Part shown: positions 55,579-58,622 of the stretch, piece by piece
Layout of the letters: every line of letters starts with the position of its first letter
Numbering within the stretch: the first letter of the stretch is position 1
NCBI GenBank assembly: GCA_019637875.1
Contig: JAHBUW010000002.1
Span: forward strand, 186,001-250,000
DNA length: 64,000 bases
Direction: 5' to 3'
DNA from: Pseudobdellovibrionaceae bacterium
Lineage (GTDB): Bacteria; Bdellovibrionota; Bdellovibrionia; Bdellovibrionales; Bdellovibrionaceae
Made by a program: the position numbers and the translations under genes
Notes under the pieces: model-generated
Seen by the model: the letters and a program-made list of their open reading frames with translations, nothing else
What the model was told of the DNA's origin: nothing
Databases searched by the model: none

Positions 55579-58020
55579 TTAGCGGGCGAGTCTTTTCAAG
55601 GTCTCTTTCAGCTCATCCACGTCACGACGGAGCTGTTGATTGTCATCTTCCAAACGACGCACTTTATCCGTCATGGCGTCCAGCTGGGCCCGGTCCGCCC
55701 GACGTTCCCCCTCCAGACGTGAGAATTTTTCAGCCCACTCACGCTGCAAACGCTCAGTTTGCGATTTCGCCATCTGACAGAGCCCATAGAGCTCTTTCGT
55801 CGACTCTACGAGGGGGGCCACGACGTTCGCATACTTCACGCCTTTGGTGCCATCCTCCGACGTCACAACCAGGTCGGGATCCACCGCCTCCACCTCTTGG
55901 GCGATGAATCCGATGTCCTCGCGACCATCGGTCTTCCAGGTGAAACGGTGACCTTGAAGTTTTAGAATCAAAGCCAGGCCTTCAACGCCGCGCACGTTTT
56001 TCTTCAAACGGCCGTCCGACGTGGTGACCAACGTCTGGCCGCGGACGCTGCCCGAAGCCAGGATGTTGCCGTCAACTTCAAGCCGTTCGCTGGGCGCCGC
56101 CTTGTTGATGCCCACAAATCCCGTACTCAGAACCGAAATTCGCGCATGTCCCGACGTCACCAACGACACATCCTGGGCGTCGTTCGAGCCGATCGTCATC
56201 GACGAACCCGTCGAGTTCCCCGTCGCACGCACGACCGCTTGCTCCAAAAGGCCCGAATCAATCCGCGCGGCACCGTTCAGCTCGACCAGATTTCCCGCGG
56301 CCACGCCGAAATTTTTCCCCGCGGCCGTTCCGCGATCCAAAATTTGCGCCAAAAGAATGGAGATGTTCGAACACACGAATGCCCCCGAACCCGCGTCCCA
56401 AGTCAGAACTTGCGAAGCCGAGCAGCCCCCGGTCGGGATCTGCTGCACGCCACTCGCGGAATTACGGATTTGCGTGTAGTCGAAATACGAAGGAACCCAT
56501 TCCGTCAGGTTGAATTTCGGGACCATCCCCGTCGAAGGTGCGCCCGCGTTGAACGAGTAGCCGCGGATTTTCGTAACCGTCGGCGCGGGATAGTCGCCCG
56601 CCAGATCACCCGTCGCCGTGCCCGTCGGCGCGCGACTGTTCGTCAATCGTGCATCGTTCGACGCCAAGGCGCGGGCCCCGTTCGACTCGTTATTCGCCGC
56701 GAGCTGCACCACGCCGACCGAGCTGCTCGTCGCGTTCGCGATAGAAATGCCGACCTCGTGAGAGGCCGTGTTCACCGAAACGGGAAACACTCCCGTCACC
56801 GCCACCAAAGAGGAAACGGGACGTATCACGCCGGTGCCTGCTTGATACTTGAGAATATCGTTCGTGTTGTCGAACCACAGCGCGCCGACGTACGCGTTGG
56901 TCAAGGTCGATGGGTTCCCCGCGCTGCGACCGACACTGATGAATTTGTCGTTCGCCATCACGATGTGACCAGAGTTCGCGAGTGAAAAATCCGCCATATC
57001 GATGGCGCCGCTCATCGTCCCACCGGTTAACGAAAGCTTTTTCGTCGCTTCCGTATCGACGTAGTTTTTCGTCGCGGCGGCCCCCGTCGCGCCGGGTTCG
57101 CCCAGATTCGTGATCTGTTGACCACCCATATTCAAAGCTCCGCTGATCGTACCACCGGTCAGCGGTAACGTGGAACCGATCCGGGTATCGACATACAATT
57201 TGGTCGCGGCATCCCCCGTCGCCGCCGGCGCTCCCAGGTTCACGATCCGCTGCGCGCCCATTTCGATCGCGCCGGACATCGTGCCACCGCTCCGTAAAAG
57301 AGCGGTCGCGATGAGCGAGTCCGCGTAGTTGCGGTTGACGGCGTCGGTTCCGGCGATGGGGTTGGCAACGTTCGTCAGGCCGCCGCCCCCCAGATCCAGG
57401 GCGCCGCCGCTCGCATAATTTGAAAGTTTGCCGAAGTTAGTTCCTTGGAAGAAATTCGCGAAGTTCGTTTGGTTCGCGGCGCCGTCCACTTGGATGAAAT
57501 TGGTGATCGGTTTGCCCGCAAGCTTCTGCGCGTTCACCGCTTCGACGGTGGGACGCATGGTTTGCGCGTCGATTTCGTCCCAGCCATCCGCATTGTCCAT
57601 TTTGAAATAAACCAGAATTTGAATCACCGGATAACTACCGGCCGCGATGGTCTGTCCCGTCGCCACTCCCGACTCATCGAAACAGGTGCGCGGCTGACTT
57701 CCATCAAAGACGCGCTCCAAACCACCCGGCTGATTGAAGCGCGGCTGGGCATCATCCAGCACGACGGAGAAAACGCCGTCCGCATCGGTTTGCGTGTTAT
57801 TGATATGGGTTTCCGATCCCATACTGCCTTGACGATATTGGTACAGATAACATGCAGCCGGCCCGACGTTCACCGCGGTCTTGATATCGAAACGGACGAA
57901 AATGTTTACGTTCGTCGCGGGATCACCGTCGGTTTCCAGCAAACGCCCATTGTACGTCAACTCCAGCGCGTGCGCGGGAAGGACGAAGAGCAGAAGAAGG
58001 AAGGTGATGAGCGGTCTCAT
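55579..58020 (-). CDS. Fibre-like surface protein with S74 chaperone domain (MAT-type)
   Basis: 813 residues with a signal peptide (LITFLLLLFVLPAHALEL). An N-terminal beta domain (about 18-150) is followed by tail-fibre-like repeats of about 45 residues (SGGTMSGAIEMGAQRIVNLG, then ATGDAATKLYVDTRI, three units), a beta-rich shaft, a Gly/Cys-containing head-like module (GCSASQVLTWDAGSGAFVCS), and a C-terminal intramolecular chaperone (peptidase S74). Ser668 and Lys673 in TSDGRLKKNV match the self-cleavage dyad, and GFIAQEVEAVDPDLV is typical. The end is a coiled coil (about 750-813). This matches Bdellovibrio mosaic adhesive trimers that recognise prey. ATGA overlap with the lipoprotein gene. 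Confidence 0.87.
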   Translation of the reverse strand: MRPLITFLLLLFVLPAHALELTYNGRLLETDGDPATNVNIFVRFDIKTAVNVGPAACYLYQYRQGSMGSETHINNTQTDADGVFSVVLDDAQPRFNQPGGLERVFDGSQPRTCFDESGVATGQTIAAGSYPVIQILVYFKMDNADGWDEIDAQTMRPTVEAVNAQKLAGKPITNFIQVDGAANQTNFANFFQGTNFGKLSNYASGGALDLGGGGLTNVANPIAGTDAVNRNYADSLIATALLRSGGTMSGAIEMGAQRIVNLGAPAATGDAATKLYVDTRIGSTLPLTGGTISGALNMGGQQITNLGEPGATGAAATKNYVDTEATKKLSLTGGTMSGAIDMADFSLANSGHIVMANDKFISVGRSAGNPSTLTNAYVGALWFDNTNDILKYQAGTGVIRPVSSLVAVTGVFPVSVNTASHEVGISIANATSSSVGVVQLAANNESNGARALASNDARLTNSRAPTGTATGDLAGDYPAPTVTKIRGYSFNAGAPSTGMVPKFNLTEWVPSYFDYTQIRNSASGVQQIPTGGCSASQVLTWDAGSGAFVCSNISILLAQILDRGTAAGKNFGVAAGNLVELNGAARIDSGLLEQAVVRATGNSTGSSMTIGSNDAQDVSLVTSGHARISVLSTGFVGINKAAPSERLEVDGNILASGSVRGQTLVTTSDGRLKKNVRGVEGLALILKLQGHRFTWKTDGREDIGFIAQEVEAVDPDLVVTSEDGTKGVKYANVVAPLVESTKELYGLCQMAKSQTERLQREWAEKFSRLEGERRADRAQLDAMTDKVRRLEDDNQQLRRDVDELKETLKRLAR

Positions 58021-58622
58021 TCCTCGACTCTTCCTTTGAACTTGAATGTTCCCGCCGCGTTCCCTTTGCGGGGCTCGGCTTCGTATTGCAAGGAGGACAC
58101 TTTGAAGCCGGTCGTTCCCACCGGATGAAGTGATCGCGCGATTTCGGCTCCGCCGGACCAAGCGCTGAGTGAGCGAAAGCCCGAACCAAGTTTACCGATC
58201 GTGATATTCAAAGCCGGCGTACGACCGAAAGGTCCCGAACCACGCAGCTGAAGCGTGCGACGATCCCCCGCGTGCATCGATTGCAGCTCGGTCCAACGGG
58301 CCCCCAAATCGGTGACGGCGAAAGTGAACTTGCACTCGGCTTGGCAGTCGTCACTTCGATCGATAGAGTCCGCGGGAAGCAGCAGAGATTTCCAAGTCTG
58401 TCCTCCGTCTAAACTCACTTCCAACGTGTCGATCGACCGCGGGAGCGTCCCGCTCAAAGGCATCGCGATGCGCCCGATGTTTTTGGCCTCAAAATGAGTA
58501 AGGTCGAGCTGAATGGCCGCAAGGTCTTCGGTCGCTTTGATCGAAAGGTCGCCCGAATCGCAACCCACGACAAAGGAAGCAAACGTCACAATTGTGAGGT
58601 TTTTAAAAAGACTTAACGTCAT
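58017..58622 (-). CDS. Lipoprotein encoded with the fibre
   Basis: 201 residues. Signal peptide with lipidated Cys in ASFVVGCDSGD. The body (about 30-190) looks like a beta-sandwich (DTLEVSLDGGQTWKSLLL, FAVTDLGARWTELQS), a pattern seen in carbohydrate or Ig-like modules. Two cysteines (DDCQAECKF) may pair. It precedes and overlaps the fibre gene by four bases, so the two proteins probably work together, for instance as an outer-membrane base for the fibre. That role is inferred. Confidence 0.78.
   Translation of the reverse strand: MTLSLFKNLTIVTFASFVVGCDSGDLSIKATEDLAAIQLDLTHFEAKNIGRIAMPLSGTLPRSIDTLEVSLDGGQTWKSLLLPADSIDRSDDCQAECKFTFAVTDLGARWTELQSMHAGDRRTLQLRGSGPFGRTPALNITIGKLGSGFRSLSAWSGGAEIARSLHPVGTTGFKVSSLQYEAEPRKGNAAGTFKFKGRVEE

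Follow-up and report, generated by a model that had tools for sequence, protein, structure and literature searches.

A lipoprotein gene paired with an S74-class mosaic adhesive trimer fibre gene in a Pseudobdellovibrionaceae bacterium: a candidate membrane tether

The gene pair and the architecture of the fibre

Two genes lie in tandem on the reverse strand of a 64,000-nucleotide stretch of DNA from a Pseudobdellovibrionaceae bacterium (assembly GCA_019637875.1, contig JAHBUW010000002.1, positions 186,001 to 250,000; hereafter the window). The first encodes a lipoprotein of 201 amino acids (aa) (58017..58622; lipobox VVG followed by C, with Cys21 at 58560-58562), defined by its open reading frame (ORF) and by family alignment. 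The second, starting with ATG, encodes an 813-aa fibre of the mosaic adhesive trimer (MAT) type (55579..58020), identified from its ORF, Pfam, NCBIfam and BLAST to the Bdellovibrio bacteriovorus fibre Bd3182. An earlier sequence-only reading of the window had noticed that the two genes overlap by four bases, and both ORFs do contain the stop/start ATGA at 58017..58020, an arrangement also found in 25 of 30 homologous genes. On balance, we consider it probable that the two genes form a bicistron for a MAT fibre of the S74 class and a dedicated lipoprotein partner that tethers the fibre base to a membrane.

MATs are built from a signal peptide, a conserved N-terminal domain (N-domain) and a trimeric fibre, with a tip that varies (PMC10769870). 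A surface element is expected to bind the N-domain, but its identity was not established in the MAT paper, and the word "lipoprotein" is absent from the main text (PMC10769870). The window fibre has the signal peptide and the conserved N-terminal beta domain of ~130 aa that mark a MAT, together with a C-terminal S74 domain bearing the SDxxxK motif, and on these sequence features it is filed as a divergent S74-class MAT. Its signal peptide (residues 1-18, MRPLITFLLLLFVLPAHA; 57967..58020) was read from the sequence. The beta domain that follows (residues 19-179; 57484..57966), the proposed docking site of the lipoprotein, is matched over residues 9-179 by the NCBIfam profile Bdello_MAT_N (NF053851; E=1.8e-9) with 37.6 bits against a curated cut-off of 60 bits; for comparison, Bd3182 scores 109.8 bits and one main-group MAT 248.7. 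An AlphaFold model of residues 17-193 is mostly beta (mean predicted local distance difference test (pLDDT) 81.7, predicted template modelling score 0.72, single chain), and a fold search of the PDB with the N-domain model gave no convincing match.

At the other end of the fibre, the self-cleaving chaperone Peptidase_S74 (Pfam PF13884) was detected over residues 668-718 (55867..56019; E=1.3e-13; score 51.5 bits, cut-off 22 bits). Its catalytic residues, Ser668 (56017-56019) and Lys673 (56002-56004), stand in the stretch S668-D-G-R-L-K673, which conforms to SDxxxK (S668, D669, K673). A coiled-coil-like stretch (residues 755-813; 55582..55758), indicated by weak coiled-coil-type Pfam matches, ends the protein, and the end of Bd3182 is alike. 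By BLAST, the tip and S74 domain share ~34% identity with Bd3182 (2e-23) and the N-domain 25% (4e-7). The MAT design proposed in the sequence-only reading is supported by the Bdello_MAT_N match, the similarity to Bd3182, the intact S74 motif and a capping-loop-like motif in the tip. The coordinates and the Ser668/Lys673 pair given there are correct, and the overlap, the S74 domain and the tail-fibre similarity are not chance features. Trimerisation and S74 self-cleavage would be expected from these features, and prey recognition by the source organism would be expected from MAT family membership alone.

Between the two ends lies a repeat shaft (residues 195-600; 56221..57438), delimited with PHROG profiles and relatives' MATs. 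The tail-fibre repeats recognised earlier correspond to PHROG tail-fibre and baseplate matches with E values as low as 1.8e-19. Such matches could also be read as the trace of a prophage tail fibre that was left behind or domesticated. However, the signal peptide, the MAT N-domain and the lipoprotein partner argue against this origin, as do the flanking genes (typA, dusB and a nitroreductase gene), since those identified are not phage-like; we regard it as very improbable. The same neighbourhood is found in a related genome (G018).

The sequence-only reading had placed a separate, possibly new head at residues 520-600, and this proposal was not upheld. Residues ~417-600 recur in many relatives' MAT genes (matches to 417-580, 427-593, 460-626 and others), so that 520-600 reads as part of a shared shaft module instead of a private head; part of this stretch is also matched by one phage protein. 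The exposed tip is more likely formed by residues 600-667 (56020..56223), which adjoin the S74 cut, align to the Bd3182 tip and include the capping-loop-like motif VGINKAAPSERL.

The lipoprotein: structure and sorting signal

No significant Pfam, NCBIfam or PHROG family match was obtained for the window lipoprotein, and two of its homologues touch a bacterial immunoglobulin (Ig) domain. Residues 38-148 (58179..58511) are predicted to form an Ig-like beta sandwich (AlphaFold block means ~80-96), for which the best Foldseek matches in the PDB are Ig and fibronectin type III (FN3) folds at low TM-score. The C-terminal tail (residues 150-201; 58020..58175), the proposed docking element, is modelled alone with pLDDT <50, yet the family alignment shows that it is kept, with two repeats of the type G-x-hydrophobic-K-hydrophobic-x-G-R-I. 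A tail that is conserved yet modelled with low confidence fits an element that becomes ordered on a partner.

Related N-terminal domains also occur in other settings. Large lipoproteins of ~1000-1570 aa (L115, L116, L117, L121, L122, L125) carry an N-terminal Ig-like domain related to the window lipoprotein, with other domains after it, and they would point to a broader class of surface lipoproteins in this group. Fusions of lipoprotein and MAT genes were considered and rejected, because the long profile matches (~500-2800 aa in the loci read) proved to be different lipoproteins whose N-terminal domain is related, and not MAT fusions.

The residue following the lipidated cysteine (+2) bears on the main rival explanation, in which the lipoprotein is an inner-membrane biogenesis helper that, like SadB of Salmonella, assists trimerisation or surface export and is absent from the mature fibre. 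SadB carries Asp at +2 (PMC3953254), and so does the window lipoprotein, which favours the helper. However, it is the only one of 30 homologues to do so, and the other 29 have S, T or Q. Moreover, no autotransporter barrel was found in the MAT sequences read, so these fibres must be retained at the cell in another way, and the minimal lipoproteins found upstream of many MATs (described below) look small for a folded chaperone. Altogether, the export helper appears unlikely, although it deserves serious consideration.

Conservation of the pairing

Homologues of the lipoprotein were found first in the source genome and five relatives, and then by profile across the order. The resulting set (A3) holds 30 full-length homologues gathered by lipoprotein similarity and not by adjacency; in 28 cases the next gene downstream encodes a MAT N-domain, a count that is not circular because adjacency was no criterion, with the caveat that six founding members of the profile had been noticed through their neighbours. 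Of the linked pairs, 25 overlap by 4 base pairs (bp), one is spaced by +4 bp and two by ~83 bp. The exceptions are a distant homologue (L126) and a gene whose contig ends just 191 bp away, where no MAT start is visible. The proposal that the lipoprotein is the partner of the fibre is strongly supported by this conserved pairing (28/30, 25 with the 4-bp overlap). One such pair belongs to a fibre of known tip structure: residues 632-782 of a fibre encoded by the Bdellovibrio genome G036 show no difference from the crystallised tip of Bd3182 (PDB 8ojn), and directly upstream of the gene for this fibre, with a 4-bp overlap, lies a gene of the same lipoprotein family.

The source genome contains six S74 loci and eight MAT N-domains. 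A second pair in this genome (L045:1307-8142; G000 contig C2, ~161.8-168.6 kb) consists of a lipoprotein and a 2075-aa S74 MAT whose shaft has collagen-like GxT repeats (TGATGATGETGATG); a third gene (336 aa) comes next, with a 4-bp overlap. A 5498-aa open frame (G000:C19:41185-57291; L002, L144), which bears a MAT N-domain and an S74 domain at its opposite ends, corresponds to a very long MAT.

MATs sampled independently and short lipoproteins

MATs were also sampled by their N-domain alone, giving 94 non-redundant loci. An upstream lipoprotein gene, defined as one on the same strand ending -30 to +80 bp from the MAT start, was present at 27 of the 94, among which orthologues are included so that the effective sample is smaller, compared with 1 of 30 control frames for outer-membrane proteins (Fisher p=0.0024). 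Many of these upstream lipoproteins are minimal, with 64-85 aa in the mature form. With a profile built from seven short lipoproteins, relatives were detected in 50 of 66 genomes of the family. Their surroundings could be read at 29 loci: 11 precede a MAT, 9 directly follow one (20/29 MAT-adjacent), and the remaining nine have no adjacent MAT within the stretch read. At a guess, short lipoproteins away from MATs might provide a shared base. The only short-lipoprotein match in the Bd3182-bearing genome (L262:1443-1794; G036 contig C1, ~3.191 Mb) lies directly downstream of a MAT in a MAT cluster and could serve the many G036 MATs that lack their own lipoprotein.

It is hypothesized that long and short lipoproteins have a docking tail in common. 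A hidden Markov model (HMM) of the tail gives higher scores to the other MAT-upstream lipoproteins than to decoy lipoproteins (Mann-Whitney p=3.5e-8, with at least two of the "decoys" coming from MAT loci and related sequences counted singly). In G012, a MAT has a short lipoprotein next to it of which the whole-family profile matches the two ends only (positions 7-32 and 148-189; E=0.1 and 0.001). When the two families were aligned with hhalign, the N-terminal part alone aligned, with a probability of 64%, and a hand-made tail pattern was found in 9 of 20 lipoproteins outside the long (A-type) family and in 8 of 32 decoys, without clear enrichment.

The same data bear on the possibility that the genes are merely co-transcribed for shared regulation, the lipoprotein acting elsewhere at predator-prey contact and not touching the fibre. 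In its favour, the binding of lipoprotein and fibre is proposed from gene pairing, and 2 of the 30 homologues as well as ~9 of the 29 short-lipoprotein loci are not beside a MAT. However, the adjacency is strictly directional and recurs in many species, in two lipoprotein families, with the 4-bp overlap and with any tip type, and mere co-transcription therefore seems improbable.

A proposed role in holding the fibre base

It is proposed that fibre and lipoprotein would be translated in a coupled manner through the 4-bp overlap, and that both proteins would cross the inner membrane via Sec. The S74 chaperone would direct trimerisation of the fibre and then cut itself off at Ser668, exposing the tip (residues 600-667). 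The lipoprotein would be fixed in a membrane by its N-terminal lipid, and its conserved C-terminal tail would grip the fibre N-domain, the Ig-like domain acting as a spacer. The base of the fibre would thereby be held on the cell while the tip meets its target. From the pairing and the tail, we infer that the lipoprotein may act as a membrane tether on the MAT N-domain, which makes it a candidate for the surface element sought in the MAT paper.

Some observations weigh against a dedicated tether. In the Bdellovibrio genome G036, most MATs lack a lipoprotein immediately upstream, so a private lipoprotein base is not universal among MATs. The low pLDDT of the tail may reflect a plain disordered linker, and the long and short lipoproteins may not be homologous. 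In E. coli, Asp at +2 is an inner-membrane retention signal. If this rule applies here, the Asp of the window copy would disfavour sorting to the outer membrane. The S or T usual at this position in the family points to the outer membrane, if that is a guide, and a role as outer-membrane base of the fibre, as suggested by the sequence-only reading, is plausible.

The lipoprotein may be the missing piece that fastens such fibres to the cell, and it is kept beside them in dozens of related species. The family is a concrete and conserved candidate for fibre anchoring, with one member beside the gene of the crystallised S74 fibre Bd3182. Because the host of Bd3182 is a genetically workable laboratory predator, fibre anchoring or assisted export is directly testable.

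History of bases and tips

In a tree of 101 MAT N-domains, a clade of 28 includes the window fibre and the Bd3182 group, among others, and 27 of its 28 MATs have an upstream lipoprotein. Two A-type pairs of G018 fall outside this clade, and the MATs linked to A-type lipoproteins do not form one clade. In G018, the shared neighbourhood (typA, dusB, nitroreductase and other genes) holds a pair in the opposite orientation, made up of an A-type lipoprotein and a MAT that lacks S74 (L049:4690-7022). Compared with positions 55579-58622 of the window, this site has apparently undergone tip exchange and inversion while the kind of partner was kept. It is possible, although we hold it only tentatively, that Bdellovibrionota MATs generally stand on small lipoproteins that dock a conserved tail on the N-domain, some fibres having their own (Ig-spaced or 64-85 aa) and others a shared one, with bases and tips evolving as separate cassettes. 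If true, a conserved lipid tether would serve exchangeable prey-binding tips.

Comparison with known systems

The closest known counterpart is Bd3182 (PMC10769870; PDB 8ojn). Both fibres have a signal peptide, a MAT N-domain, a repeat shaft, S74 with SDxxxK and a coiled-coil-like end, and both follow, with a 4-bp overlap, a gene of the same lipoprotein family. The tip of each has a capping-loop-like motif, VGVGTTAPTSAL in Bd3182 resembling that of the window fibre, whose likeness to the solved Bd3182 trimer is one of sequence. Unlike Bd3182, the window fibre has a divergent N-domain (37.6 against 109.8 bits), and identity over tip and S74 is ~34%.

In the SadBA operon of Salmonella, too, the gene for a small lipoprotein immediately precedes that for a trimeric adhesin, and SadB has Asp at +2 (PMC3953254), like the window lipoprotein but unlike its 29 homologues. 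However, SadA is a type V autotransporter, whereas the MAT fibre is of S74 type. SadB has a MATH-like fold (PMC3953254), whereas the window lipoprotein is modelled as an Ig/FN3-like domain with a loose tail and shows no MATH-like C-terminal domain. An S74 intramolecular chaperone is also found in a phage long tail fibre (PDB 6f45), to which the window fibre has a sequence match (E=1.2e-5); unlike phage long tail fibres, the window fibre is encoded by a cell and has a signal peptide, a MAT N-domain and a lipoprotein partner. In favour of the proposed tether, an adhesin with a lipobox, exposed on the surface, has already been described in a Bdellovibrio-type predator (PMC11003981).
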